DNA of 64,000 nucleotides from Rivularia sp. MS3 (lineage in GTDB: Bacteria > Cyanobacteriota > Cyanobacteriia > Cyanobacteriales > Nostocaceae), in the NCBI GenBank assembly GCA_019192545.1, contig JAHCMI010000016.1:1-64000 (forward strand), read 5' to 3'. Of this stretch, positions 21,937-36,957 are shown piece after piece. The stretch's first letter is position 1; the number at the start of each line of letters is the position of its first letter. The translations under genes were made by a program, and so were the position numbers. The notes beneath the pieces were generated by a model. That model ran no database searches. It saw nothing but the letters and a program-made list of their open reading frames with translations, and was not told where the DNA came from.

Positions 21937-23448
21937 TTGAACAGGAATCCGTTTGTAAAGTCAAAAAACGGCAAAATAGTCAGCGTTGAGCATTCATCAA
22001 CAGCTTATGCAGATGAAACCCCAGCTAATACCAGCAAAACAGCAGTAGCACCAAAAGCAACCGGTTTATTTTATATACTGCTTTTATTATTCGTAAATGC
22101 CGGTATTTGGAGCGGAGCTTTGATGTATTTAGCTACAGCTAAATCCAAATATGTTAGCGAATGGGCAGTAAATATTCCTGGTAGCGGCTCAACTTCTAAC
22201 ATTAACCTTCCCGATATTGGGCAGGCCACTTCTCAAAACTATTCAGCCTATGCCGGAGCTAATTACGATCCTAGAGAAAATTACAAGGCGATCGCTACTA
22301 GCGAGCAAGTATTAGATACAGCCGCCAGAATCGTCAATATGCCACCAAAAAAGTTTGGCAAGCCGCGAATTAAGATAGTTGACAATACGTCTTTGATGAA
22401 GTTCGAGTTCAAAGGCTCTACTCCCCGGCTGGCAAGAAGGAAATCTATAGCTTTACAAAGTGCATTTGAAGCAAAATTAGACCAGTTGAGAAACGCAGAA
22501 ATCGCCCAGCAAAAAGCACGTTTAGAGAACGGTATGGATGCCTCGCGGCGTAAATTGAAAGTAGCTCAAAAACGGCTGAGTCAATTCAAAGCTAATTCTG
22601 GGTTAAATTCAGATGAACAACTGAAAAACTTGGCAGTAAATATAGAAGACTTGCGGCGGCAGCGTAGCGAACTAACAGCCCAGCAGCAACAGTCCCAAGC
22701 TCGACTTTCAGAATTAGCAGGCAACTTGAATCTATCTTCCAATCAAGCTTCCGATGCTTTTGTTTTGCAGGCAGATCCGCTGTTTCAGAATTATTTGAAA
22801 ACCTATAGCGAAGCAAATAGCGAACTACTCAAAGCTACAGCAAAATTAACCAAGGCTCATCCAACAGTTATCAATCTCAGAGCAGAACAACAGGCAGCCC
22901 AAAATGCTCTTTTGAATAGAGCGCAATCTCTTTTAAATCGTCCTGTCAGTATGGCTTTAGTCAATCGACTTAACTTCAGCAATAACGAATCATCCGGTTC
23001 TAAGCGTGCCATATTATCAGAACAATTGGTAACCACCAGCGTTGAGAAGCAGGGAATAAAAGCCCAAGTCAGTGCTTTAAATTCAGAAATTCCCCAATTA
23101 GAAGAAAGATTAAAAAAATTATCTCAACAGCAATCGGTAATGGAAGACTTGAGACGAGACGTACAGGTTGCCGAAGCCGTATTTTCATCTACCATAGCCA
23201 AATTAGACTTAGCTAAAACTAGCGTATCTTCTTCTTATCCAGAAATTCAGCCTTTAGCTAGACCTAGTTTACCAACTGAGGAAGCTGGGGTGAAAAAACC
23301 TTTGGTATTACTCGGTGCAGCATTAGGCTCTTTGTTATTTAGTAGTGGAATTATTGGATTATGGAAAGCTAAATTGCAGCAGCGACAGCAAGAACGCCAT
23401 CTTCAAGAATACATCGAATATCCAGAATTTGTAGAAGACTACTACTAA
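21937..23448 (+). CDS. Polysaccharide chain-length regulator (GumC/Wzz type)
   Basis: 503-residue inner-membrane polysaccharide co-polymerase. Transmembrane helices at about 41-66 and 459-480 enclose a periplasmic part with long coiled coils (about 170-250 and 370-420), the usual PCP layout. The C-terminal cytoplasmic tail is about 25 residues and has no Walker motifs or Tyr cluster, so there is no fused BY-kinase. It would set chain length of the polymer made by the next gene product, and interact with an outer-membrane exporter that is not encoded here. A TTG-type start with MNRNPF is used. Eleven bases separate it from the polymerase gene, suggesting cotranscription. Confidence 0.85.
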   Translation: MNRNPFVKSKNGKIVSVEHSSTAYADETPANTSKTAVAPKATGLFYILLLLFVNAGIWSGALMYLATAKSKYVSEWAVNIPGSGSTSNINLPDIGQATSQNYSAYAGANYDPRENYKAIATSEQVLDTAARIVNMPPKKFGKPRIKIVDNTSLMKFEFKGSTPRLARRKSIALQSAFEAKLDQLRNAEIAQQKARLENGMDASRRKLKVAQKRLSQFKANSGLNSDEQLKNLAVNIEDLRRQRSELTAQQQQSQARLSELAGNLNLSSNQASDAFVLQADPLFQNYLKTYSEANSELLKATAKLTKAHPTVINLRAEQQAAQNALLNRAQSLLNRPVSMALVNRLNFSNNESSGSKRAILSEQLVTTSVEKQGIKAQVSALNSEIPQLEERLKKLSQQQSVMEDLRRDVQVAEAVFSSTIAKLDLAKTSVSSSYPEIQPLARPSLPTEEAGVKKPLVLLGAALGSLLFSSGIIGLWKAKLQQRQQERHLQEYIEYPEFVEDYY

Positions 23449-23459
23449 AGTATTTAACT

Positions 23460-24725
23460 ATGAGACCCCAAAACTTTGAAGAAAGTTTAATTTGGTACGT
23501 AATTATCGGCACCTACGCTATTTATGCATTGGGGCTGGTGTTTCCCGTTTATTCTTCACTAGCTTGGATATTAGGCGGGTATTTGGTTTTTAAACTTTTG
23601 CTGCAAACCAAAACAACTCCATTACAAGAGAAAATTACCGTTCCCTGGCTAACCTGGCTGTGGGGAATTTGCTCGTTAATTACTTTAGTTGCTACTTATG
23701 TCGCTATCACAGATTTTAATTTAGGAACAACCGTTCTTTTGAGGTCTATTTTAGGCTGGTTGAGCAGTACGGCAATCATTCCGTTATTTTTACTAAGTGG
23801 ATGTTTAAATATTAGACCCCAATTAATTTATCGAGCCGTATGTATATTGTGTTTGCAAAGTTTGATCGCAATTCCGATTGCTTATGCAGCTTACGCAGCC
23901 AATTTACCGGATATTATTTATACATCTCCGATTGAAAGATTGATTCAAAATGGCCCTATTTTCCACAACGTAGGGTTTTATACTTCAGATTATGGAGTCG
24001 ATAACGTTCGCTTATTTCTATTTACTCCTTGGTGTCCGGCTTTAGGTCTTGTTAGCAACATATACTTTTTTATGGTGCTTCAAGAATCCAATAAAAAATG
24101 GAAATATATCGGCATAATTGGAGCGATCGCCATGAATGTTGTGTCACTTTCCCGAGCGGCTTTAATTTCTTTACCGTTAGTGTTAATAGTTCTTTGGGGC
24201 TTAAAAAACTTTACTCGTCCTTTGGTGCAAATTGTTGGTGGACTTATTTGTTTTACTGCTGGAATTTTTAGTACTCCTCTAACTAATGCTGCTACAGAAT
24301 TTGTCGATTCGTTTCACAAATCCAGAGCAGATTCTTCGAGAGTTCGCGCTGCCTTACAAAGGGTAGGAATCGAGGCTTGGAAAGAAGCTCCTATATGGGG
24401 GCATGGAGTTCAAAAACCAGGGCCGCCAGTTTTAGCAAATTTGCCCATTGGTTCCCATCATACCTGGATCGGACTGTTATATACGAAAGGATTGGTTGGT
24501 TTTATGGCTTTATTGGTGCCCGTACTATTAACTTTATTCGATTTATTAATTAAGGCAGAACATAGTGAAATAGCCGAAGCATCTTTGGGCATGTTATTAA
24601 TATTGATTTTATTCTCGTTTGGAGAACAAATAGATATTTTGGGCTATATTATTTGGCCGGGTTTGATAATTATGGGTATTGCTTTTAAACAAAAAGTGAG
24701 AAAACCAGTTTTTGCCTTGACTTAA
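23460..24725 (+). CDS. O-antigen ligase/polymerase family protein (Wzy-like)
   Basis: 421-residue multi-spanning membrane protein with about ten to eleven hydrophobic segments and a large periplasmic loop (about 270-330) containing WKEAPIWGHGVQKPGPP and GSHHTWIGLLYTKG, typical of the Wzy_C/ligase fold. The conserved SLSRAALISLP segment near residue 230 fits the family. It likely polymerises lipid-linked repeat units in the periplasm. It starts 11 bases after the chain-length regulator, its functional partner. Confidence 0.85.
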   Translation: MRPQNFEESLIWYVIIGTYAIYALGLVFPVYSSLAWILGGYLVFKLLLQTKTTPLQEKITVPWLTWLWGICSLITLVATYVAITDFNLGTTVLLRSILGWLSSTAIIPLFLLSGCLNIRPQLIYRAVCILCLQSLIAIPIAYAAYAANLPDIIYTSPIERLIQNGPIFHNVGFYTSDYGVDNVRLFLFTPWCPALGLVSNIYFFMVLQESNKKWKYIGIIGAIAMNVVSLSRAALISLPLVLIVLWGLKNFTRPLVQIVGGLICFTAGIFSTPLTNAATEFVDSFHKSRADSSRVRAALQRVGIEAWKEAPIWGHGVQKPGPPVLANLPIGSHHTWIGLLYTKGLVGFMALLVPVLLTLFDLLIKAEHSEIAEASLGMLLILILFSFGEQIDILGYIIWPGLIIMGIAFKQKVRKPVFALT

Positions 24726-25036
24726 TATTTTTTTACATAAAATTAAATGAATTTAAATCAACTAAATTAAACATTTTTGTCGGTATTTGTTATTACATGT
24801 TGTTATTATATGCTGATTTATATTATAAAATTAAATATTTGTGTTTTGAATTAATTCATCTTTGATAAAAGTAAAAGTCAAATAAACTTAATTACATATA
24901 GGTAAAAAAGACCTGTATTTTATCTTTACCAATTATCTATTTAAATCTCGACTATTTTTCATCAAAATAACAAACAATAGTGTTATTATTTCTTTCTAAT
25001 CAATTAAAAAAAGATACAGGAAGTGTCTACAAATAA
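24726..25036. other. Spacer between polymerase and flippase genes
   Basis: 311 AT-rich bases with no coding frame. A purine-rich AGGAAG lies about 15 bases before the flippase ATG. Probably contains an internal promoter, but none is clear. Confidence 0.45.
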
Positions 25037-26335
25037 ATGATAATTGAAAAAATTAAACAACAGTTATCAAATCAGTTCATCCGTAATATTGGCTGGCTTG
25101 GAGGTGCCGAACTAATAAATCGCGTATTTCGTTTAGGGGCAACAGTAATATTAGCTCGTGCCTTAACTCGCGAAGATTATGGACTAGCAGCAATTGTTTT
25201 AACCATTAATGAATTTACAACAGTTTTTACCCTTAGAGCCGGAATTGGAGGTAAGATTGTTCAAGCTGATGAACAAGACGTAGAAGTATTTTGCAATACA
25301 GCCTATTGGTTAAATTGGATATTATGCATTTCCCTATTTGTCATTCAGTGTATTGCTGCTTTTCCTATAGCTTGGTGGTATAACGAAGATAAATTAATCT
25401 TGCCGCTGTGCGTATACAGTTTAGTCTATTTAATGCTACCGTTTTTTGCCGTTCATAATGCACTAATTGATAGAGCCAATAGACTCAAAGTGACAGCCAT
25501 CAGTACGGCAATTCAATCGATGCTCAATAACATCTTAATTCCAGTATTTGCACTTTCTGGTATGGGAATGTGGGCTTTAGTATTACCCGGACTTTTAACT
25601 ACCCCAGTATGGATTGTAGTCACTCATATCAACGAACCTTGGCGACCGAAAATGCATTTTACCCTCAAAAGGTGGAAAGAAATTGTTAATTTCGGTAAAG
25701 ACGTACTTGGCTATGAGCTATTAGAAAAGCTGCGAGCAAATATTGATTATTTATTAGTAGGAAGATTATTAGGAGTAGAGGCGTTAGGAGTTTACTTTTT
25801 TGCTTTTAATGCAGGTTTGGGCATCAGTTTAAATGTCATTAATATAATGGTATGGCCTCTTTATCCCCATTTATGTGCTGCCAGACAAAATTTTGCCGAA
25901 TTCAAACAAAAATATTTTCATAGCTTGAAAACCATTAGCTTGGTTATAGTACCTTTAGTTCTTCTTCAATCAAGTTTAGCTCCGTTTTATGTACCTATTG
26001 TATTTGGTGAGAAGTGGACAACGGCGGTACCTATATTAGTACTGATTTGCCTTTCCGCCATACCCCGCCCATTCGGTACCGCAGCAGCTTTACTATTACA
26101 GTCTTTGGATAAAGCTTGGATAAATCTACGCTGGAGTGTAATTTTTACCGGGATATTTATCGCTTCAATATTTGTTGGTATGCAGTGGGGAATTCTTGGG
26201 GTAGCAGTATCAGTATTAATTTCTCACGTAATCGCAATGCCAATATTTACAGTCTGGGCAACAAAGTTAGTGTTTGCAAAAAACTCAACAGAATTTACAG
26301 AAACAAAACCAAAAATAAACTCTTCTAAACATTAA
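25037..26335 (+). CDS. Oligosaccharide flippase (Wzx-like)
   Basis: 432-residue polytopic protein of the polysaccharide transporter branch of the MOP superfamily, which moves undecaprenyl-linked repeat units across the inner membrane. About twelve hydrophobic segments are spread along the whole length; the N-terminal GGAELINRVFRLGATVILARALTREDYG region is the characteristic first helix pair (shown here in part). Together with the Wzy-like and GumC-like genes it defines a Wzx/Wzy-dependent pathway. Confidence 0.88.
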   Translation: MIIEKIKQQLSNQFIRNIGWLGGAELINRVFRLGATVILARALTREDYGLAAIVLTINEFTTVFTLRAGIGGKIVQADEQDVEVFCNTAYWLNWILCISLFVIQCIAAFPIAWWYNEDKLILPLCVYSLVYLMLPFFAVHNALIDRANRLKVTAISTAIQSMLNNILIPVFALSGMGMWALVLPGLLTTPVWIVVTHINEPWRPKMHFTLKRWKEIVNFGKDVLGYELLEKLRANIDYLLVGRLLGVEALGVYFFAFNAGLGISLNVINIMVWPLYPHLCAARQNFAEFKQKYFHSLKTISLVIVPLVLLQSSLAPFYVPIVFGEKWTTAVPILVLICLSAIPRPFGTAAALLLQSLDKAWINLRWSVIFTGIFIASIFVGMQWGILGVAVSVLISHVIAMPIFTVWATKLVFAKNSTEFTETKPKINSSKH

Positions 26336-26388
26336 AATTTCGCAAATCTCAAAGCTTATTTCAAATTTATTAAATTGACCAAATTATC

Positions 26389-27330
26389 ATGAGTGCTGCA
26401 TTTACTGTTGTTATGCCAGCCTACAACGCTGCTGCATATCTTCCACAAACAATTGAATCGGTTTTAAATCAAAGCTTTACCGACTTTGAATTCATAATTA
26501 TCGATGATGGCTCTACTGATAATACCCCAGCAATAGCCTATCACTATAAGAAAAAAGACCAAAGAATTAAACTTTTATTTCAAGCGAATCAAGGAGTTTC
26601 TATAACTCGTAATAATGGAATAAATCATTCTAATTCCAAATACATTGCTTTTATAGATGCTGACGATAGATGGTTACCCAATCATTTGAAGCTACATTTT
26701 GAGCATTTGGAGAAAAATCACAGTTTAGGAGTTAGCTATGCAAAAGTAGAATTTTTACATCCTGATGGTAAGCATACCGGAAAAATTGCTAGGGGACGCT
26801 TAAATAAGCTACAGCCCCAACATTTTTTATATGAAAATCCGACGATGACTGTGTCAAATCTTGTAGTACGCAGCCAGGTATTTCAAGATATTGGTTACTT
26901 CGATTGTGACATGAACTACTCAGAAGATATGGATTTACTGTTTCGAGTAGCCTGTAGTCAATGGAAAATTCAAGGTATCAACCGCGTATTAATAGAGTAT
27001 AGAACGACACAAGGAGGACTATCTTCTCAACTTTACAAAATGGAAGAAGGCTGGGAAACTTTGATGGCAAAAGCCAGATTACAGGCACCCAAGCTAATCA
27101 ACCAACATTATTCCAAAGCTAGAAGCAACCATCTACGCTATCTAGCTCGTAGAGCTTTTCGCTTAAACCTTTCCCCTCAAGTTGCAGTCGATTTTTTAAA
27201 TCGAGCATTAAATTCAGATTGGCAACTAGTAATAAGGGAACCGGGTACTACTTTAGTTACAATGCTCGCAGTTTACGGCTCTCTTGCCCTAAAGTATGTA
27301 AACTTACGTAAATTTGCTCAATCTTCATGA
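26389..27330 (+). CDS. Family 2 glycosyltransferase
   Basis: 313-residue GT-A fold enzyme adding a sugar to the growing lipid-linked unit at the cytoplasmic face. N-terminal VVMPAYNAAAYLPQTIESVL, nucleotide-binding DDGSTDNT and the metal-binding FIDADDRW (DxD) are all present; SEDMDLLFRVA is the likely catalytic-base (ED) region. The C-terminal 80 residues are helical and basic. One of three similar GT2 proteins in this locus, probably paralogues. Confidence 0.9.
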   Translation: MSAAFTVVMPAYNAAAYLPQTIESVLNQSFTDFEFIIIDDGSTDNTPAIAYHYKKKDQRIKLLFQANQGVSITRNNGINHSNSKYIAFIDADDRWLPNHLKLHFEHLEKNHSLGVSYAKVEFLHPDGKHTGKIARGRLNKLQPQHFLYENPTMTVSNLVVRSQVFQDIGYFDCDMNYSEDMDLLFRVACSQWKIQGINRVLIEYRTTQGGLSSQLYKMEEGWETLMAKARLQAPKLINQHYSKARSNHLRYLARRAFRLNLSPQVAVDFLNRALNSDWQLVIREPGTTLVTMLAVYGSLALKYVNLRKFAQSS

Positions 27331-27433
27331 AAATAAGATTAAAACTTTACTTTCTTTACATATGTTTGCTGCATTACATCTAATTTTCTTGTATTATTTG
27401 TAACAGTATGACTGATAAATAAGATTAGCCGAT

Positions 27434-28432
27434 ATGAAAGTATGTTATTTAATTCAGACTTATAAGAATCCGGAGCAGATTTATAGACTTGTTAAATTGA
27501 TAAAAACTACTTCCTCAAATTCATTTATAATTATTAGTCATAATTTTAAAAGTTGCAGTTTAAATACTAGCGTGTTTAAGAGACTTAAGAATGTAGAAGT
27601 TATTCCTAATAATGGGGTAATGATGGGAAGTTTTGCAATTATTCAAGGCTTTTTTGATGCAATTAACTGGTTGGTGAATCATCAAATTAAGTTTGACTGG
27701 TTGATAAATTTAACTGGTCAAGATTATCCTACACAGCCTCTTTATCAAATCGAAAATTTCTTGTCAAAGACAGACTACGACGGTTTCGTCGAATATTTTG
27801 ATGTTTATTCCCAACAAAGTCCTTGGGGTAAAAAAGTTGCAAATATAAGATACTTGTATCGTTACAAGCATTTTCAAGAATACTTATCTTATCGACAAAG
27901 ATATGTATTAAAGCCCATCAAACATATAGTTAATAGTTGTCAGCCATTTATTCGATTAGACTATTCTTATGGATTAATTATTGGAGTCAAAAACTTCTAT
28001 AATTTATTCAATAAAAATTTTATTTGTTATGGAGGTTCTTTTTTTGTCACAATCTCCCAGAAGTGCGCTATGTATTTAAATAATTTCATTCGCGAACAAC
28101 CGAGAATTTTAGACTATTATAAAAAGACTTTTATCCCAGAAGAGTCTTTAATACAAACTGTTCTAGTAAATAGTAAAAAATTCAATTTATGCAATAACAA
28201 CTACCGATATGCTGATTTTAAAGATAGTCGTCACGGACATCCCCGTATTCTTACCAGTAAAGATTTTTCGACTTTGAGCGACGATAATATTCATTTTGCT
28301 CGTAAATTTGACCCCAAAGTTGATAGTGAAATTCTCAACAAACTTGACCGTAGAATACTTACGAATAAAGACATTAATGTCAATTTCAAGTCCAATCAAA
28401 TGATGCCAGCTAGTCAATATCTAAAAGTATAA
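27434..28432 (+). CDS. Core-2/I-branching-type glycosyltransferase (GT14)
   Basis: 332-residue protein of the GT14 branching-enzyme family, whose eukaryotic members are beta-1,6-N-acetylglucosaminyltransferases or xylosyltransferases. Diagnostic features are the N-terminal CYLIQTYKNPEQIYRLVK, the FDWLINLTGQDYPTQPL segment and the later FIPEESLIQTVLVN motif with the family's catalytic-region Glu. No membrane anchor. In bacteria these occur in polysaccharide clusters and are thought to add branch sugars. Codon use is more AT-rich than its neighbours, and Asn/Lys/Ile are common, hinting at separate acquisition. Confidence 0.85.
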   Translation: MKVCYLIQTYKNPEQIYRLVKLIKTTSSNSFIIISHNFKSCSLNTSVFKRLKNVEVIPNNGVMMGSFAIIQGFFDAINWLVNHQIKFDWLINLTGQDYPTQPLYQIENFLSKTDYDGFVEYFDVYSQQSPWGKKVANIRYLYRYKHFQEYLSYRQRYVLKPIKHIVNSCQPFIRLDYSYGLIIGVKNFYNLFNKNFICYGGSFFVTISQKCAMYLNNFIREQPRILDYYKKTFIPEESLIQTVLVNSKKFNLCNNNYRYADFKDSRHGHPRILTSKDFSTLSDDNIHFARKFDPKVDSEILNKLDRRILTNKDINVNFKSNQMMPASQYLKV

Positions 28433-28506
28433 AATCATCATGGGTAACTGAATAAATCAAGGTCTAACTTAACTTAGCATTAAACATTTTTTAATCGAAA
28501 AATGGC

Positions 28507-28562
28507 AATTGCGAGTGAAGCGTTTAGTAAATAAAAACGTTTCGCTCGCAATTAACTTTTTA
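28507..28562 (+). terminator. Long stem-loop between the GT14 and GT2 genes
   Basis: Two 19-nt arms (28507-28525 and 28535-28553) pair with two mismatches around a nine-base loop, then AACTTTTTAT follows. This is a strong hairpin with a short T-run, 75 bases after the GT14 stop, so a rho-independent terminator or an attenuator splitting the cluster is likely. Confidence 0.65.
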
Positions 28563-28631
28563 TGCCTAACACATTGTATAATCGTTAATGAAAAAATATT
28601 TCGTACAGGTATTTTATATCGGTAAATTATA

Positions 28632-29621
28632 ATGCCTATAATTTCTGTTGTCGTACCGGCTTATAATTCTCAAAGTACAATTCTAGAAACAATTAACTCA
28701 GTTTTAGAACAAACTTTTTCCGATTTTGAGCTAATAGTTATTAATGATGGTTCTACTGACAAAACTCTGGAGATTTTAGCAACTGTAAAAGACGCGAGAT
28801 TAAAAGTTTATTCCTATCCAAATGGAGGTTTACCAGCAGCTAGGAATCGAGGTATTGCTAGAGCTTCAGGAGAATTTATATCTTTTATTGATGCAGATGA
28901 TTTATGGACTCCTGATAAATTAGAATTGCAACTTCAAGCTTTACAAAAAAGTCCTTCGGCAGGAGTCGCCTATAGCTGGACAATTTGTATGGGTAATAAT
29001 GGCGAGTCATTCCATCCTGGTGTATCCGAAAGTTATCAAGGCAATGTTTATCAGTATTTATTGATAGGTAACTTTATTGCCAGCGGTTCAAACGTACTTC
29101 TTCGCCAACAAGCCATTGAATCAGTAGGCTATTTTGACGAAAGCTTGAAATCTTCCGAAGACTGGGATTATTGGTTGCGATTAGCGCCGAAGTGGGATTT
29201 TGTAGTTGTCCCCAAACCGCAAATTATTTATCGACTGTCTTCTGGGGCTATGTCTAGCAAACTCGATGTAATGGAGAAATATCAAACTATAGTTTTAGAA
29301 AAAGCCTTTGCATCAGCACCTCCACAGCTACATAATTTAGAAAATCGGGGTTTTGCTTATATATATTTATTTATGACACGACTTTATTTAAGTCGTGCCA
29401 ATAATGCCAAAGTTCTGAACAAAGCGACTGAAAAATTATCGCAGGCAATTCGTTTCTCTCCAAAAATATTAATGAGTAAAGAAGCTTTGTTGTTGGCAGT
29501 CAAGATTATTATATTGCGAATTCTATCTCCAAAAATTGCTTCTAATATTTTAAGTAAAACTGTTAGAATTCGTAAAGCTGCCGACCCCAGATTGCAAACT
29601 AATTCACTCAGAAGTTATTAA
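28632..29621 (+). CDS. Family 2 glycosyltransferase
   Basis: 329-residue GT-A enzyme. VVVPAYNSQSTILETINSVL, INDGSTDKTLEIL and the DxD motif in FIDADDLWTPDKLE are clear, with SSEDWDYWLRLA as the acceptor-side base region. It resembles the GT2 proteins at 26389 and 29756 in both the catalytic domain and the short helical C-terminus. It follows a strong hairpin, so it may be transcribed from its own promoter. Confidence 0.9.
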   Translation: MPIISVVVPAYNSQSTILETINSVLEQTFSDFELIVINDGSTDKTLEILATVKDARLKVYSYPNGGLPAARNRGIARASGEFISFIDADDLWTPDKLELQLQALQKSPSAGVAYSWTICMGNNGESFHPGVSESYQGNVYQYLLIGNFIASGSNVLLRQQAIESVGYFDESLKSSEDWDYWLRLAPKWDFVVVPKPQIIYRLSSGAMSSKLDVMEKYQTIVLEKAFASAPPQLHNLENRGFAYIYLFMTRLYLSRANNAKVLNKATEKLSQAIRFSPKILMSKEALLLAVKIIILRILSPKIASNILSKTVRIRKAADPRLQTNSLRSY

Positions 29622-29755
29622 TATTGCTAGGAAGAAGTTTGTTTTGTTTATTTAGGAGCAATCAAATTAGCAATAATCAGAAACAATATGATTAGCTGCT
29701 GTTAATATTTTACTTGTTACCGATTTTTTGCTGTCGTTACATCTACCAATTAATT

Positions 29756-30805
29756 ATGAATCAGGAAACCATCGATAGAAAAGCATCTGTAATTATACCG
29801 CTATACAATGCAGAAAAATATATCAAAAAAACTTTACAGTCTATTTTAGACCAAACATATAGAAATTTAGAAGTCATCATTGTTGATGATGAATCTCCCG
29901 ACAATAGCGTCGAAGTTTGTCAGCAGTTTACCGATTCTAGAATTAAAATTGTTCATCAAAAAAATCGAGGTTTAGCAGGCTCTAGAAATACAGGTATCCG
30001 TCATGCCCAAGGTGAATATATCGCCTTTATGGATGCCGACGATATTTGGCTACCAGAAAAGTTAGAAAAGCATATAAATCATTTAGAAACCAATCGGGAA
30101 ATAGGAGTTAGTTTTAGTCGTTCTGCTTTCATAGATGAACAAGATACACCTTTAGGAATATACCAAATTACCAAGCTCAAAGATATTACTCCCCTCGATA
30201 TTCTTTGTCGTAGTCCTATTGGCAATGGTTCGGCAGCGGTTTTCAAAAAAGCTGTTTTTGAAGATATCAAGTTTCAAGACAATCTTTATGGATATGTCGA
30301 ATATTACTATTTTGACGATACTTTTGCACTTTCAGAAGATATTGAATGCTGGGTCAGAATTGCCCTTACCACTAACTGGAAATTTGCCGGTTTGGCTCAA
30401 CCATTAACTCTTTATCGAGTCCACTCGCAAGGATTATCAACAAATCTCAAAGTCATGTTAGATACGAGAGAAAAACTATTTGAAAAAACTAGCTCTTATG
30501 CTCCAGTACAGATGAAAAGTTGGACAAAACCAGCAAGAGCTTATCATCAAAGATATGTAGCTAGAAGAGCAGTTACTATTAATAAAGGATTTTTAGCTTT
30601 ACAGTTAATGTGTCGCTCGATTATCAACTATTGGCGCATTATCATAGAAGATTTTCAGCGTACTTTTGAAACTATTGCTGCTGCGGTTTTACTTTGTATA
30701 GTACCGAAGCCTTTATACGATAAAACTAAATCGGTAGCTTTAAAAATAGTTGGGAATTTGCAACAGAGAAGCATTGATAAAGACAAGTTAAGAGAAGCAT
30801 CGTAA
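29756..30805 (+). CDS. Family 2 glycosyltransferase
   Basis: 349 residues from the ATG at 29756; a TTG 14 codons upstream would add a hydrophobic Cys-rich stretch and is less likely. ASVIIPLYNAEKYIKKTLQS, VDDESPDNSVEV and FMDADDIWLPEKLE (DxD) mark the GT-A fold, and LSEDIECWVRIA the base region. The C-terminus has a hydrophobic helix around residues 300-320 that may dock to the membrane. Third GT2 of the locus. Confidence 0.9.
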   Translation: MNQETIDRKASVIIPLYNAEKYIKKTLQSILDQTYRNLEVIIVDDESPDNSVEVCQQFTDSRIKIVHQKNRGLAGSRNTGIRHAQGEYIAFMDADDIWLPEKLEKHINHLETNREIGVSFSRSAFIDEQDTPLGIYQITKLKDITPLDILCRSPIGNGSAAVFKKAVFEDIKFQDNLYGYVEYYYFDDTFALSEDIECWVRIALTTNWKFAGLAQPLTLYRVHSQGLSTNLKVMLDTREKLFEKTSSYAPVQMKSWTKPARAYHQRYVARRAVTINKGFLALQLMCRSIINYWRIIIEDFQRTFETIAAAVLLCIVPKPLYDKTKSVALKIVGNLQQRSIDKDKLREAS

Positions 30806-30914
30806 AAAAGTTAATCAAGGCTACATTCTCTTTCTTAGTGTAGATATATCAGATGACTAAATATTGTTTACTAGTAATCATCCGTGACTTATCAAAAATT
30901 ACCAGTAACCTAAC

Positions 30915-31247
30915 ATGCAAACTATACTTGAAAGCCAACAGTTCACAATTATAAAACCTCAAAATTCAATTACAGCCGCTAATGCTTACCTGCTGGAAAA
31001 AAAACTAACTACTGCATTAAGACAAAACTCGCATTTAAATATATTAGTTGATATGCAGCAAGTCGAATTTATGGATAGCTCTGGATTGATGGCATTAATA
31101 TCAAGCTGCAAATTAGCTCAAAGTTTACAAAAACGCTTTAGTCTTTGTTCGATTTCTAATGGTTTGAAAATAATCATTGAACTAACTCAACTCGATAACG
31201 CATTCGAGATATTTGCATCTGAAGCCGCATATAAAGAAACGCTGTAA
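30915..31247 (+). CDS. STAS-domain protein (anti-sigma factor antagonist type)
   Basis: 110-residue single STAS domain, the fold of SpoIIAA-like proteins that release a partner by being phosphorylated or dephosphorylated on a conserved Ser. The switch motif FMDSSGLMAL (D54, S55, S56, G57) is intact, so it is likely phosphorylatable by an HPK-like kinase and reset by a PP2C phosphatase; neither is encoded in this window. It sits inside the polysaccharide cluster, 16 bases before the GH74-like gene, suggesting it controls synthesis or release of this polymer. Partner-switching control of polysaccharide is known in Nostoc hormogonia; applying it here is inference. Confidence 0.88.
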   Translation: MQTILESQQFTIIKPQNSITAANAYLLEKKLTTALRQNSHLNILVDMQQVEFMDSSGLMALISSCKLAQSLQKRFSLCSISNGLKIIIELTQLDNAFEIFASEAAYKETL

Positions 31248-31275
31248 TCAACACAGATAATTATTGCTTAAAACA

Positions 31276-33438
31276 ATGCGTTTCCTTAGTTTATTTAATT
31301 TTCGCCAGCGCAAAATATTTGGCTTAATCTTTATTGCTTTATTAACTGCATTTGCCGTTCAATTTTTCTTTAGTTCTCATCAAGCTGTTCGCAGCTTATC
31401 CCATCAAGTTACTATCGCCAAAACTTTTTATCGGCATTATCCTTCTTTAGGTAGTCGCAATGTTGCTATAGGCGGGGGAGGCTATGTAACCGGGATATAT
31501 CTTCATCCACAACAGCGCAATTTGGTTTATATTAAAACCGATATTGGTGGCTTTTATCGCTGGAATCCTGTTAATTCAACTTGGATACCGCTCAACGAAC
31601 AACTGTCTTTAGCTAATAGCAATTATTATGGAGGTGAAGCTTTAGCACTTGACCCAAACGACCCTAATATTATATACATTGCTGTAGGCAAATATACTGC
31701 CGATTGGTGGCAGCATCAAGGAACAATCCTTAAGTCTTTAGATAGGGGGAGAACTTGGATTAAACTGAATATTGACCTGAAAATGGGCGGCAATGAACCG
31801 CAAAGATGGACGGGTGAAAGATTAGCGGTGAATCCTTTCAACTCTCAAAATCTATTTTTTGGTTCCCGTCAAGATGGTTTATGGAAATCGGAGAATGGTG
31901 GGGATAGTTGGGTAAAAGTCAAGTCGTTTCCTAACCTTAAAGATGATATCGGCATCAATGCCATTGCTTTTGATAAATACAACAAAGGCATCATTTACGC
32001 TCTTGCTCACAAACACGGAGTATATAAATCCACTGATGCGGGCAATACCTGGGCACAAATGTCTGGTACCCCTGCTCAAGTTAACCGGATTGCCATCGCT
32101 AGTAACAGTTCTTTGTACCTGACTCATTCTGGTGGTGTAAGTAAGTTTGTCGAATGTTGCTGGCAAGATATTACCCCTCTTGCAAACAAAATGGCTTTCA
32201 ATGCAGTTACCGTTAACCCTAACAACCAGGATGACGTGATAGTTGCTACTTATAGCGATTCTTATACAGAGATTTTTCGTTCTCAAGATGGTGGCAGCAA
32301 ATGGACTCCAGTTAAGCGACAGGCGAATAATACGGTATCTTGGTGGTCTGACTATATGAAATCAAAACCTTCTATAGCAAGTATCGAATTTGACCCTTGG
32401 TTGCAAAACAGAGTTTGGTTAACTGATTGGTATGGAATATGGCGAACAGATAATATTAATCGCAATCGGGTTGTATGGACAAATTATCAGAAAGGGCATG
32501 AAGAAGTAGTAACCTTTACCTTGGTTTCCACACCTTCAGGAGCATTAATCAGCGGTTTAGCAGATGTGGAGGGATTTTATCATGACAGGGGATTGCAGGA
32601 ATATCCTTCCAAAATGTTAAGCAGCAAACCCCATGAATTTCAAGATACCTACAGCATCGCTTATAGCCAAAAAAAACCTTTGAGAATGGTGCGTGTTGGC
32701 GGGAGTCGTCATAACAATACCTATAGCGGTGCGACTTCAAGCGATGGTGGGAAAACCTGGAAGAAATTTCCTAACTTTCCTGCGAAACAAATGGCAACGC
32801 GAGTTGCGATGTCTGCAAGCAATCCGAATTTATTCGTTGTTACTCTAAGTGGCAATCAACCTCTGCGAACTATAAACGGTGGTGCTTCCTGGCTTCCGGT
32901 TACTGGCTTACCGAATGGTTTTGAGGGTAATTGGAATTGGACGCAACCTTTAGTTGCAGACAAAGTTGACGGCAGCTTATTTTACTACTACGCCGATGGC
33001 AAAGTTTATCGTAGCGACAACGGCGGTAAATCTTTTGCAGTTGTTTCTACATCGCTGCCTTCTTCAGACTGGCACTCTCTTAAAACTGGCTCTGGAGTCA
33101 AGGGGGAATTATGGCTGAGCTTAGACAAACAAGGGCTTTACCATTCAAAAGATGGAGGCGATCGCTTTACTAAAATTGCAGGGGTAAACAGGGCATATTT
33201 GATTGCACTTGGTAAACCGAAAATTGGCAATGCCGGTAACGCAGTTTATTTATATGGAGAAATTACTGACAAAGGCAAAGGCATATTTCGTTCTTTAAAT
33301 AACGGTAAAAGTTGGCAAAGAATAGGCAATAAAAATAAACCCATCGGTAACGATCCAAATGTAATGGAAGCTAGCTCTACAGAGTTTGGTTTAGTTTTTA
33401 TTGGTACTAACGGAAGAGGAATTTACTACGGTAAATAA
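31276..33438 (+). CDS. GH74-like beta-propeller glycoside hydrolase, membrane-anchored or secreted
   Basis: 720 residues from the ATG at 31276 (a TTG four codons upstream is possible). One hydrophobic helix near residues 14-34 is a signal anchor or uncleaved signal. The rest is a tandem of BNR/sortilin-like blades (repeated S.DGG..W and S.NGG.SW motifs), the two-propeller layout of GH74 endo-glucanases/xyloglucanases. Both residues expected for catalysis are present: D89 in KTDIGGFYRW and D430 in SGLADVEGFYHD. It follows the STAS gene by 28 bases and precedes the GT26 gene by 20, so it belongs to the operon. It may trim, release or remodel the exopolysaccharide outside the cytoplasm; true substrate unknown. 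Confidence 0.82.
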   Translation: MRFLSLFNFRQRKIFGLIFIALLTAFAVQFFFSSHQAVRSLSHQVTIAKTFYRHYPSLGSRNVAIGGGGYVTGIYLHPQQRNLVYIKTDIGGFYRWNPVNSTWIPLNEQLSLANSNYYGGEALALDPNDPNIIYIAVGKYTADWWQHQGTILKSLDRGRTWIKLNIDLKMGGNEPQRWTGERLAVNPFNSQNLFFGSRQDGLWKSENGGDSWVKVKSFPNLKDDIGINAIAFDKYNKGIIYALAHKHGVYKSTDAGNTWAQMSGTPAQVNRIAIASNSSLYLTHSGGVSKFVECCWQDITPLANKMAFNAVTVNPNNQDDVIVATYSDSYTEIFRSQDGGSKWTPVKRQANNTVSWWSDYMKSKPSIASIEFDPWLQNRVWLTDWYGIWRTDNINRNRVVWTNYQKGHEEVVTFTLVSTPSGALISGLADVEGFYHDRGLQEYPSKMLSSKPHEFQDTYSIAYSQKKPLRMVRVGGSRHNNTYSGATSSDGGKTWKKFPNFPAKQMATRVAMSASNPNLFVVTLSGNQPLRTINGGASWLPVTGLPNGFEGNWNWTQPLVADKVDGSLFYYYADGKVYRSDNGGKSFAVVSTSLPSSDWHSLKTGSGVKGELWLSLDKQGLYHSKDGGDRFTKIAGVNRAYLIALGKPKIGNAGNAVYLYGEITDKGKGIFRSLNNGKSWQRIGNKNKPIGNDPNVMEASSTEFGLVFIGTNGRGIYYGK

Positions 33439-33458
33439 TTCAAATTTAATACAAAAAA

Positions 33459-34268
33459 ATGGCTACAAACAAAATTGGTATTAACCACTTCGATGAAATA
33501 GAATTACTCGGAACTAAATTTCATAAAGTTAGAGTTCAAGAATTAATTAATTTCATAGTTAAATCAGCAAGTATAGATAAAAAGACACTAGTAGGAAACG
33601 TAAATGTTAGAGCAATGAATTTTGCCTGCGAAATGTCCTGGTACAAAGATTTTATTAATCGGTCAGATTTAGTATTTTGTGATGGTTTTGGGGTACTATT
33701 AGGTGCAAAAATGTGCGGTTGCCCTGTAAATTCGGAACACCGCATGACTTGTCCTGACTATATAGAAGAATTAGCGAAGCAATGCGAAAGAGACAATGTT
33801 TCTCTGTATCTGTTAGCAGGTAAACCAGGTGTAGTTGATAAAGCAATAGATAAATTGAAATTTATTGCTCCGGATTTGAAAGTAAAAGGGCATCACGGTT
33901 ACTTTCACAAATCTGGGACTGAAAATGAATATGTTGTGAATGAAATCAATCAATTTAAGCCCGGTATACTTTATGTTGGGTTCGGAATGCCACTGCAAGA
34001 ACGCTGGATTATCGATAATTTTGACCGAATAAATGCTAGGGTTTTCCTACCTTTAGGTGCTTGCTTAGATTTTTATACGGGTGCAGTATATCGAGGCCCC
34101 CGGTGGATGACTAATAGCGGGCTAGAATGGTTATCAAGAATGTTTACCGAACCGCAAAGATTGTGGCAACGTTATATTGTTGGCAATCCTCTATTTTTCT
34201 ATCGTCTTCTCAAAGAACGGTTTACAAAACGTTTCAAAAATAATAGTAAACCATCCTCAACATATTAA
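33459..34268 (+). CDS. WecG/TagA/CpsF-family glycosyltransferase (GT26)
   Basis: 269-residue GT26 enzyme, which typically transfers a second sugar to the polyprenyl-pyrophosphate-linked primer. Family marks: LVGNVNVRAMNFA (N-terminal binding loop), FCDGFGVLLGAKM, LLAGKPGVVDKAI, then GFGMPLQERWI and GACLDFYTGAVYRGPRWM. The C-terminal basic helix (about 225-265) is the membrane-docking appendage seen in TagA. It acts straight after the priming transferase, whose gene lies next. Confidence 0.92.
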   Translation: MATNKIGINHFDEIELLGTKFHKVRVQELINFIVKSASIDKKTLVGNVNVRAMNFACEMSWYKDFINRSDLVFCDGFGVLLGAKMCGCPVNSEHRMTCPDYIEELAKQCERDNVSLYLLAGKPGVVDKAIDKLKFIAPDLKVKGHHGYFHKSGTENEYVVNEINQFKPGILYVGFGMPLQERWIIDNFDRINARVFLPLGACLDFYTGAVYRGPRWMTNSGLEWLSRMFTEPQRLWQRYIVGNPLFFYRLLKERFTKRFKNNSKPSSTY

Positions 34269-34472
34269 GGAAAATTAAATTTTTTCTTAAACTGAATCAA
34301 AGCATTCTATTTAATTAGATATTAGAGCTATCAACATTAAAACCTCTACTTTTTGCTTTAACTGCAAAATAAATAATTGAGAAGTATTCCTATGATACGG
34401 CTATTTCTTTGAGTTTAATCAATGATTAGACTTTGAAGAGAGTTCAAAATTGTTTGTCAAATAAATATTTAC

Positions 34473-34496
34473 TTTGCTCCATTTTTTTGGAGCAAA
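34473..34496. terminator. Short stem-loop before the priming transferase gene
   Basis: TTTGCTCC (34473-34480) and GGAGCAAA (34489-34496) form a perfect 8-bp stem with a T-rich loop. It lies about 200 bases after the GT26 stop; weak terminator or structured leader of the next gene. Confidence 0.4.
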
Positions 34497-34567
34497 CTTT
34501 GGTGACTTAATATCTACCAACTTTCAACAATGCAGCTAACAATATTAATACAGGTGTAATACAGGCT

Positions 34568-35995
34568 ATGGCTTATCGTTCTCTACCGGTAGTAAATTTT
34601 CAACCCGATCTGAGATCGGCGAAAGGTACAAATTTAAGAAGAGGAATTGCAATTAGGTTTCTGCGAGTTATAACCCTGATTTCAATCGATATGATTGCTT
34701 TAAGTTTGGCTTGGACTTTAGCAATTAATTTTGGAACTTTTGTAGAATCTCCTTGGACTAGAAAAGCTTCGTTTATTTCATTGATACTTGTAGTCGGAAT
34801 TGGCATGATAGCCAGTAAAGGGCTATATTCACCCGGTTTCTATCGTCGTAACTATACTGCTTTAATCAAAGCAGTAACTCTATCAGAGATTTTTTTACTA
34901 TTAATTGCTTTTCTTTACGAACCAGATGCTTATGTTTCTCGTTCTAGCTTTTTAATATTTTGGTTTTTGTCAATCGCTTTTACCTGTATCGGACGCTTTG
35001 TTTTCGATTTTTCAACTAAATTGTTGCGTAAAAAAGGAGCTATCCGCTATCCGATTTTTGTAATTACCGATTCTCAAGACCAAGATGATTATCTAAAATT
35101 TATTCAGAAAGAAAACTGCTACAACCTTGAAGGTATTGCTGACTCAAAAAGTTTAGATAGAGACAATCGAGAAGCAACATTTGAATTTCTGAAACAGCAA
35201 AGTGTAGTTGAAGCTTTTGTTTCTTGGAATGCGATTAAAAATCGTCTATATATATGCTGGCATTTTCAGACAGCCGGTATTACTTTACGCATACTTCCGA
35301 CTAGCAACCGTATTTATCATCCAAAGTCAACGCTATGGACAATCGGTAACGTTCCATGTTTAACAATTCCAGCCCCAATCATTGCAGGTAGCGATTTTTG
35401 GATTAAACGATGCTTCGACTTGTTTTGTGCGACTATTTTATTAATTCTGTTTTCCCCTTTGTATCTATTAATTGCTTTACTAATTAAATTAGATTCTCCC
35501 GGTCCAATATTTTTTAGACAAGAGCGAATTGGTTTGCACTGTAAAAAGTTTAAAATCTGGAAATTCCGTACTATGGTGACAAATGCGGAGAAATTACAGG
35601 CTAATTTAGAAGCGAAAAATGAAATTAAAGATGGGGTTCTTTTTAAGATGAAAGATGACCCCCGGATTACAACAATTGGTAAATTTCTGCGCCTTTACAG
35701 CTTGGATGAATTACCACAATTGTTTAATGTATTATTGGGGGATATGAGCTTAGTGGGGCCTCGTCCTCTTCCTATAAGAGATGTGGAAAAATTTCAAACC
35801 CCGCATTTTATTAGACAAGAAGTTTTACCTGGAATTACAGGTTTATGGCAAGTTTCCGGTCGCTCGGATATCGAAAAGTTTGAAGATGCGGTTAAACTTG
35901 ATATCAATTATATTGAAAACTGGTCTATTCTTCTGGACTTGAGAATTTTATTGCAAACTGTAAGAGTTGTCTTGCACAAAACTGGTGCTTATTAA
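34568..35995 (+). CDS. Polyprenyl glycosylphosphotransferase (priming sugar transferase)
   Basis: 475-residue membrane enzyme that starts repeat-unit synthesis by moving a sugar-1-phosphate onto undecaprenyl phosphate. The N-terminal half has four transmembrane helices and a CoA-binding-like middle domain; a fifth helix (about 280-305) leads to the catalytic domain with DSPGPIFFRQERIG, KIWKFRTM, DELPQLFNVLLGDMSLVGPR and LPGITGLWQVSGR. Length matches WbaP/WcaJ-type proteins. The stop codon TAA overlaps the first unit of an AAGTAGC heptamer array. Confidence 0.93.
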   Translation: MAYRSLPVVNFQPDLRSAKGTNLRRGIAIRFLRVITLISIDMIALSLAWTLAINFGTFVESPWTRKASFISLILVVGIGMIASKGLYSPGFYRRNYTALIKAVTLSEIFLLLIAFLYEPDAYVSRSSFLIFWFLSIAFTCIGRFVFDFSTKLLRKKGAIRYPIFVITDSQDQDDYLKFIQKENCYNLEGIADSKSLDRDNREATFEFLKQQSVVEAFVSWNAIKNRLYICWHFQTAGITLRILPTSNRIYHPKSTLWTIGNVPCLTIPAPIIAGSDFWIKRCFDLFCATILLILFSPLYLLIALLIKLDSPGPIFFRQERIGLHCKKFKIWKFRTMVTNAEKLQANLEAKNEIKDGVLFKMKDDPRITTIGKFLRLYSLDELPQLFNVLLGDMSLVGPRPLPIRDVEKFQTPHFIRQEVLPGITGLWQVSGRSDIEKFEDAVKLDINYIENWSILLDLRILLQTVRVVLHKTGAY

Positions 35996-36042
35996 GTAGC
36001 GAGTAGCAAGTAGCAAATAGCAAGTAGCAAAAAGCGATAAGG
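35994..36042. repeat. Heptamer STRR array (AAGTAGC type)
   Basis: Seven head-to-tail heptamers AAGTAGC, GAGTAGC, AAGTAGC, AAATAGC, AAGTAGC, AAAAAGC and so on. The first AA is part of the TAA stop of the priming transferase. Confidence 0.88.
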
Positions 36043-36252
36043 ATTTAAGGGTGATTTACCTGCATGTTGCATAGCTTAGTTTGTTTGTGCCTACTTACTT
36101 AATAAATGTGTTTGCTGGCAAGAAGAAGTTAAAAATTTATTCTTCTCCTTACCAGCAATAACTAAAATATTTTTTAATTAGATAGCGATTGGTTTTAACT
36201 CACCTGCACAATAATTTATATTAACTATAAAGGTCATCGGGGTAGGGTAAAT

Positions 36253-36957
36253 ATGAACTTTGATAAAATCTCTTTCTTTGAAAGATTTATTACTACTATT
36301 TTTGGAGGAGTTCCAAATATTTTATTTGGAAAAAAAATTAGAAACTTCGTATATCGAAGTCTTCTACATAAAATCGGTAAATCGGTTAATATTCAACATT
36401 TCGTTGAACTAATTGGAACTTCTTATATTGAAATTGGTAATCAAGCCAGTCTTTTGAAAGGAGTCCAGATTAATGCTTTAGGGCACCCTAATAATAAAGT
36501 CAGTATTAAAGATAAAGTTCGATTAGAGCGGGGTGTAGATATTCGCTCGTTACACAATACGCATATTATCATTGACGAAAATGCATATATTGGTCCTTAT
36601 GTAGTTATTGCCGGTACAGGAAATATAAAAATTGGCAAGAATTGTTTAATTGCACCCCACTGCGGCATATTTGCTAACAACCACCTGTTTGCAGATCCGA
36701 CTCAAACGATTGAAGCGCAAGGTATCACCAGTCAAGGCATTGTAATTGAAAATGACTGTTGGTTAGGGCATAACGTAACAGTCTTAGATGGAGTAGTAAT
36801 TGGCGAAGGAAGTATTATTGGTGCGGGTTCAGTTGTAAATAAGAGCATCCCTGCTTTCTCGATTGCAGTAGGTACACCTGCAAGAGTGATTAAAAATCGT
36901 CTTGATGTGCAAACAGCGAACTTACCGTCACAATTACCATCGAAAATACAACACTGA
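36253..36957 (+). CDS. Left-handed beta-helix acyltransferase (WcaF/NodL-like)
   Basis: 234-residue hexapeptide-repeat transferase, probably O-acetylating a sugar of the polymer with acetyl-CoA. Residues about 55-215 contain the repeats (for example VSIKDKVRLERGVDI and IVIENDCWLGHNVTVLDGVV), with the catalytic His in the ANNHLF region and the C-terminal AGSVVNKSIPAFSIAVGTPA signature. The N-terminal 40 residues include a basic amphipathic segment. Last plus-strand gene of the locus. Confidence 0.88.
   Translation: MNFDKISFFERFITTIFGGVPNILFGKKIRNFVYRSLLHKIGKSVNIQHFVELIGTSYIEIGNQASLLKGVQINALGHPNNKVSIKDKVRLERGVDIRSLHNTHIIIDENAYIGPYVVIAGTGNIKIGKNCLIAPHCGIFANNHLFADPTQTIEAQGITSQGIVIENDCWLGHNVTVLDGVVIGEGSIIGAGSVVNKSIPAFSIAVGTPARVIKNRLDVQTANLPSQLPSKIQH

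Follow-up and report, generated by a model that had tools for sequence, protein, structure and literature searches.

A putative GH74 endo-glycanase encoded within a cyanobacterial Wzx/Wzy exopolysaccharide gene cluster

Introduction

Hydrolases that are built into exopolysaccharide pathways are of a known kind. In two cellulose synthase operons, the unlike hydrolases CcsZ (glycoside hydrolase family 5 [GH5]) and BcsZ (GH8) have the same role, and the hydrolase was used by the authors as support for the identity of the polymer (PMC7710045). PslG of Pseudomonas aeruginosa is found mainly at the inner membrane and shapes the polysaccharide Psl (PMC9075953), and PelA generates secreted Pel of low mass (PMC9894940). 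Here, we analyzed a gene for a protein of glycoside hydrolase family 74 (GH74) that lies at positions 31276..33438 (+ strand) of a 64,000-nucleotide stretch of DNA, termed the window, from the cyanobacterium Rivularia sp. MS3 (family Nostocaceae; positions 1 to 64,000 of contig JAHCMI010000016.1). The gene is located inside a Wzx/Wzy polysaccharide gene cluster, and our combined results suggest that its product is probably a dedicated endo-glycanase of this cluster, cutting the cell's own β-1,4 glucan-like polymer.

The polymers of cyanobacterial sheaths and slimes influence soil crusts, mats, and desiccation tolerance, and to our knowledge, few of them have been assigned to a gene cluster. 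In the open-licence literature that we searched, we found no report that places GH74 within a cluster for exopolysaccharide synthesis; a GH74 putative endoglucanase is listed among the heterotroph proteins of a cyanobacterial biofilm (PMC4937211).

Results

The gene encodes 720 amino acids from its ATG, with an alternative TTG start at 31264. A phmmer comparison with the PDB matched 17 sequences, the best of which was 6p2m_A (ClGH74a; E 5.4e-105, residues 61-719), and 2cn2_A was matched over residues 62-720 (E 1.1e-88); together with a profile search, this gives a full-length GH74 match that includes the whole folded part. The names that depositors gave to the matched molecules vary, and the titles of the entries are those of GH74 enzymes or xyloglucanases. 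Pfam matches were obtained for Sortilin-Vps10 (83.8 bits, cut-off 33) and for the Asp-box family BNR (PF02012; 28.8 bits, just above the cut-off of 27); BNR_2 scored under its Pfam cut-off, and the Pfam scan of the protein found no carbohydrate-binding module.

The architecture of GH74 is one of 7 + 7 propeller blades (PMC2716378), and two tandem seven-bladed propellers are also predicted for the window protein. An AlphaFold model, built on a 35-row alignment (A2) of the window protein and 34 of the 79 named loci described below, cyanobacterial and not, reached a predicted local distance difference test (pLDDT) score of 91 and a predicted template modeling score of 0.88, with pLDDT values below 50 in residues 1-7 and 31-52 only. 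Foldseek ranked GH74 structures in places 1-25 (2cn3_A, E 3.8e-63, template modeling score 0.85). With VIA-align, the model was superposed on 6p2m over 637 residues at 1.8 Å (Z 49.3, 38% identity), and 16 further GH74 entries gave Z scores of 45-49, compared with 29.5 for the ancestral GH74 6p2k and 28.9 for the first entry not named GH74.

Alignment to the GH74 sequences in the PDB placed the catalytic pair at D89 (31540..31542) and D430 (32563..32565), both encoded on the + strand. D89 stands opposite the D of RADIGG in 2cn2, which is Ala in the variant 2cn3, and D430 stands opposite the D of VGDLVGF (the VGD motif). Both residues are invariant, in 18/18 rows of a first alignment (A1) and in 35/35 rows of A2. 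By sequence, predicted fold, and catalytic pair, the product of 31276..33438 is a GH74 protein. A preliminary description of this DNA, made from the sequence alone, had proposed a GH74-like propeller with BNR-type blades and both catalytic Asp residues, D89 and D430; the double propeller, the BNR match, and an Asp pair in register with that of GH74 bear this out, and the misplaced Asp that it had named as a possible refutation was not what we found.

A different picture was obtained for the subsites that confer processivity. In PoGH74, W347 and W348 at the +3/+5 subsites are required for processivity (PMC10317168). These correspond to residues 315-316 of the 6mgj chain (NAWWPDE); counted on the alignment, the same offset of +32 also reproduces Y372 and W406 of that article (PMC10317168). 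When aligned with 6mgj, the window protein has no counterpart of this WW pair, the mark of the processive subgroup, so that ordinary xyloglucanase behavior is not to be assumed for it. Only 1 of the 35 rows, the proteobacterial L128, has WW at this site. We considered whether the missing pair is a cyanobacterial specialty and rejected this, since near noncyanobacterial relatives lack it too; it is therefore the mark of a branch and not of slime clusters. A separate cyanobacterial WW, at 356-357, is present in 18/18 cyanobacterial rows of A1, but it is not strict, with a single W in L094 and L099.

The same residues bear on whether the protein is catalytic at all. It could instead bind the polymer without cutting it, guiding or holding the growing chain, given that the plus subsites lack their Trp pair and that some Asp-box propellers, such as Vps10 receptors, are not carbohydrate active (PMC2716378). 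We regard this as very unlikely: D89 and D430 are retained in every row of A2, whether cyanobacterial or not, and the GH5 proteins of related clusters (see below) keep both glutamate motifs, i.e., the NEP motif and the second glutamate, in 4/4 aligned proteins, an indication that catalysis is required.

The groove of this presumably active enzyme appears to be open. Between profile positions 351 and 369, the window protein has 17 residues, compared with about 54 in the exo-acting 1sqj; we take this place to be the site of the GH74 exo loop that blocks one end of the cleft, and the much shorter segment suggests an open, endo-type groove. The preliminary description had held that a closed cleft would make the protein a noncatalytic propeller. 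Against such a cleft, the model superposes on GH74 structures, ligand complexes among them, and a long stretch of the exo-acting 1sqj has no counterpart in it; an open cleft would be in keeping with these two observations.

A membrane helix at the N terminus had also been noted. A hydrophobic helix is indeed present (residues 4-30 in the model, 31285..31365, + strand; hydrophobic from residue 12 in a hydropathy scan) and may serve as an export signal, an inner-membrane anchor, or both, as a retained anchor and a cleaved signal are each compatible with it. Basic residues (FRQRK) precede the hydrophobic core, and by the positive-inside rule, the propeller would lie outside. In a crude scan of 62 cyanobacterial N termini, which included the window protein and from which fragments were not removed, 25 had one hydrophobic segment, 9 had two, 17 had a lipobox-like motif, and 11 had none that we found; such segments, present in 51/62 rows, are suggestive of export and, for many of the copies, of tethering.

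The linkage of GH74 to Wzx/Wzy genes recurs well beyond the window. A scan of named genomes, which requires one of two exact motifs, retained 80 of 82 confirmed matches and gave 79 loci, 61 counted as cyanobacterial and 18 others (including L079). In the flanks examined, the 61 cyanobacterial loci had Wzy in 39 cases, Wzx in 39, either of them in 43, and a WecG-type glycosyltransferase in 28; the 18 others had no Wzx/Wzy and a single WecG, that of L079. Both Wzy and Wzx lay upstream and on the same strand in 26 of the 61 loci and one of them did so in 10; in 6 loci, they were confined to the opposite strand or to the downstream side, and the locus L125 is a fragment. We also made a quick tree, with long branches, from the 74 rows that were left after those below 600 or above 1,100 amino acids had been dropped; it united the cyanobacterial rows and L079 in a group of 59 with a support of 95, and all 42 rows with Wzx/Wzy fell within it. 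L079 is a metagenome-assembled genome labeled Tatlockia (Legionellaceae), and its GH74 is nested beside that of Chlorogloea CCALA 695 in the tree; it is likely a misbinned cyanobacterial contig.

A survey of the order was consistent with these findings. Among 291 genomes, Wzy relatives (E up to 1e-60) were present in 73, close GH74 copies (>600 bits) in 38, and both in 32, compared with 9.5 expected if the two were independent, although genomes related by descent do not count as independent cases. Of the 48 close GH74 places, 27 were no more than 30 kb from a Wzy of the window type, and 25 of these followed it on the same strand. The survey used 63 GH74 places down to 357 bits, leaving out lower ones, fragments of close copies included; of the 15 places at 357-600 bits, the one near Wzy is a broken close copy (G222). 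We set aside the correlations of GH74 distances with those of Wzy, Wzx, and Wzc (0.77, 0.75, and 0.88, respectively) and did not use them as evidence, because species descent alone could produce them.

The idea of an odd stray gene was rejected, since the arrangement recurs across families. Horizontal transfer into this one strain had been suggested by a first sample, in which a single other close copy from the strain's own family was seen (G240); a search of the family then found copies above 600 bits in 34/217 genomes (counted by hand), including 7/8 of the strain's own genus, so that the distribution in the family may reflect patchy retention or transfer. Split or broken GH74 copies were seen in near relatives of the strain (G456:C177:13310-15453 and L085:10001-11677). 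The strain's own genome also encodes a second, more distant GH74-like protein of 847 amino acids on another contig (C118; L142:8090-10633, - strand), next to apparent allophycocyanin genes as judged by sequence starts; long-frame relatives of it, mostly of 840-890 amino acids and about 220-380 bits, occur in many genomes of the family.

Where Wzy was found without a close GH74, a different hydrolase often stood in its place. We inspected 14 such places and scanned ten proteins from them, three of which were GH5. A family search of the 291 genomes then gave 136 GH5 places, 91 of which were in Wzy-bearing genomes. Within 25 kb, 91 Wzy places had GH74 only in 21 cases, GH5 only in 24, both in 7, and neither in 39. 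In 18 of the 24 GH5-only places, which span 14 genomes of six families, GH5 was on the same strand within 15 kb. GH5 lay no more than 25 kb from Wzy at 30/91 places, compared with 1.25 expected by random placement in 6.5-Mb genomes, a lenient null since polysaccharide genes cluster in general; GH3 serves as a partial control, and 0/45 GH3 places, picked by eye among the matches listed as being in Wzy-bearing genomes, were near Wzy, the nearest at 52 kb. Two of the GH5 proteins, compared with the PDB, belong to unlike branches, one like the endoglucanase CelC (E 2.7e-50) and one like mannanases (E 5.9e-22). It thus appears that unlike glycanases, from families that largely cut β-1,4 links, fill one role. 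In loci of Laspinema, Oscillatoria, and Phormidium (L091-L096), a GH5 gene (cluster c22, one member scanned) directly precedes GH74, and a run of small proteins (c7) in which the one scanned had no Pfam match follows on the other strand.

These patterns also bear on whether the enzyme is directed outward, i.e., secreted to scavenge or remodel xyloglucan or other glucans that come from plants, algae, or microbes outside and placed in the cluster by chance or through coregulation in biofilms. It is true that most of the solved GH74 entries are titled xyloglucan hydrolases, that the Wzx/Wzy genes of these clusters are absent from the flanks examined in 18 of the 61 cyanobacterial cases, and that GH74 relatives of two Lentisphaerota loci (L107 and L108) and an unclassified one (L110) lie with LacI-type-looking regulators, as in catabolic gene sets, judging from sequence starts only. 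However, chance placement is at odds with the tight packing in a biosynthetic operon that recurs across families, with the 25 of 48 close copies that follow a Wzy of the window type on its own strand, and with the presence of GH5 in the same kind of cluster; the lipobox-like or membrane segments and the missing processivity pair also do not favor a free xyloglucan scavenger, and we consider this explanation unlikely. L107 and L108 also carry apparent pseudopilins and further secreted proteins, again by sequence starts only, and their owners are possible consumers of such polymers.

In the window, the genes around GH74, from 21937 to 36957, are all on the + strand. The first encodes a protein resembling a polysaccharide copolymerase, i.e., a Wzz/Wzc-like chain-length protein (21937..23448), an assignment based on weak NCBIfam matches to chain-length determinants, which scored far under their cut-offs, and on its recurring position, as no Pfam match was obtained for it. 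It is followed by a protein of the Wzy_C polymerase/ligase family (23460..24725; PF04932, E 3e-12), a Wzx flippase (25037..26335; PF13440, E 4.7e-54), and four glycosyltransferases identified by Pfam scan, three of GT2 type (26389..27330, 28632..29621, and 29714..30805) and one of the Branch (GT14-like) type (27434..28432; PF02485, E 2.9e-16). The only PDB match of the GT14-like protein up to an E value of 1 is human xylosyltransferase 1 (E 0.0026), and on this one weak match we do not claim a xylosyltransferase role. A stand-alone STAS domain protein (30915..31247; PF01740, E 7.3e-17) lies 28 bp 5' of GH74, and a WecG/TagA/CpsF glycosyltransferase (33459..34268; PF03808, E 4.5e-51), which we take to be GT26, lies 20 bp 3' of it. 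The latter matches the TagA-type 7mpk (E 6.2e-25), its nearest solved relative being TagA, and we did not adopt a possible link with GumM of xanthan, which would imply a cellobiosyl start. An initiating sugar-phosphate transferase of the EPS_sugtrans type (34568..35995; TIGR03025, 403 bits, cut-off 295.55; PF02397) and a hexapeptide-repeat transferase (36253..36957; PF00132, E 1.9e-18) complete the cluster. Apart from the two short gaps flanking GH74, the gaps are 11 to 311 bp, so that a single transcript is likely. The placement of GH74 inside a Wzx/Wzy operon, as first described, is therefore upheld, and the arrangement is widespread and not peculiar to this genome. The STAS gene, assigned by gene clustering, was seen in just three further named loci (L056, L057, and L085); L146 has a fusion of a STAS domain with an initiating transferase.

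Downstream neighbors at other loci raise the question of when the enzyme would act. In ten named loci, GH74 is followed by a c10 gene (a CHASE3 histidine kinase in the member scanned, from L084) and, in seven of these (L070, L073, L075, L077, L084, L088, and L123), also by a c18 gene (a LuxR-type response regulator in the member scanned, from L123), a hint of regulated expression. Regulated deployment of this kind would suit an enzyme whose main substrate is mature, extracellular sheath and which acts, for example, when motile filaments or daughter cells depart, and not during synthesis. The linkage to Wzy, Wzx, and glycosyltransferase genes and the likely membrane tether are better suited to action at the site of synthesis, and we think it improbable that dispersal is the main function.

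Discussion

We propose that the GH74 protein acts as an endo-glycanase within the pathway that encodes it. In the mechanism that we envisage, the glycosyltransferases would build a lipid-linked repeat, which Wzx would flip and Wzy would polymerize; the propeller, which the N-terminal helix would export and which probably stays at the membrane, would bind the chain in the open groove between its two propellers, and D89 and D430 would hydrolyze a β-1,4 linkage of the polymer backbone. The outcome might be that chain length is set, that stalled periplasmic chains are cleared, or that cell-bound sheath is converted to released polymer. As GH74 would cut a β-1,4 backbone, the polymer would be expected to have a branched, glucan-like, β-1,4-linked backbone.

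The preliminary description had reasoned from the xyloglucan-directed activity usual for GH74 to a self-made polymer with a β-glucan-like backbone, or to a role in release or length control. The GH74 identity and the polymer-making gene partners on which this was built are supported. Both the putative β-glucan-like backbone and the putative role in release or length control fit our results and gain weight from the exchange with GH5. Published slime polymers of Nostoc offer a partial parallel: the backbone is reported as a 1,4-linked xylogalactoglucan for N. commune and others (PMC5635763), and Xyl, Glc, and Gal are reported to be 1,4-linked in the polymer of N. sphaeroides (PMC6017307).

Besides the shared descent behind the genome counts and the lenient null used for GH5, several points weigh against this proposal. 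The published Nostoc backbones, likened to the putative polymer by their linkage, fit it in part, and the N. sphaeroides polymer also contains 34.5% mannose and shows an infrared band that was read as alpha linkages (PMC6017307). With neither hydrolase within 25 kb at 39/91 Wzy places, a hydrolase is not obligatory, and among the 18 cyanobacterial GH74 loci lacking Wzx/Wzy in the flank, about six are on short contigs and the others are not. In six of the 24 GH5-only places, GH5 is on the other strand, four of them at 21-22 kb, and seven of the 14 GH5-only genomes are from one family, so that the GH5 count overstates the number of independent cases. GH5 is also a broad family, and the substrate of the hydrolase may be a side chain or a different polymer. 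Finally, the activity of the GH74 protein, its location, and the chemistry of the polymer enter the argument by inference.

A broader hypothesis, which we put forward tentatively and hold to be rather less probable than the endo-glycanase function itself, is that the product of a Wzx/Wzy pathway widespread in cyanobacteria is a branched, xyloglucan-like polymer whose backbone is a β-1,4-gluco(xylo/galacto) chain. A built-in hydrolase slot that is occupied by GH74, by GH5, or by both might then be a switch between bound sheath and released slime, a GH74 lineage might have turned from the consumption of plant-type glucans to a self-made glucan, and the type of hydrolase might predict the chemistry of the polymer. 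If the endo-glycanase function is correct, the range of GH74 would extend from the breakdown of plant glucans to the synthesis of exopolysaccharide, and its family identity would hint at the chemistry of the cell's own polymer. A recurring, exchangeable hydrolase would provide a clue to the backbone linkage and a reagent for cutting the polymer in structural work, and the conversion of sheath to released polymer becomes a question that can be tested by deletion of one gene.

Compared with known GH74 endo-xyloglucanases (ClGH74a, 6p2m; the Clostridium thermocellum enzyme, 2cn2/2cn3; and PoGH74, 6mgj), the window protein shares the tandem propellers and the Asp pair. Unlike them, it is encoded inside an exopolysaccharide cluster, has no carbohydrate-binding module that we found, lacks the W347/W348 pair, and belongs to a cyanobacterial set in which N-terminal hydrophobic or lipobox-like segments are common by the crude scan. 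Like PslG and PelA, it is a hydrolase encoded together with exopolysaccharide genes; those two represent other enzyme families and act on other polymers. As in the systems of BcsZ, CcsZ, PslG, and PelA, the gene is encoded and conserved with synthesis genes, if not universally, as the 18/61 loci without Wzx/Wzy indicate. A parallel in arrangement is also seen with CcsZ and BcsZ, which belong to synthase-dependent cellulose systems, whereas here a Wzx/Wzy pathway is accompanied by GH74 or GH5; in both settings, a known or putative β-1,4-glucanase is encoded with the synthesis machinery, and unrelated families appear in the same role.

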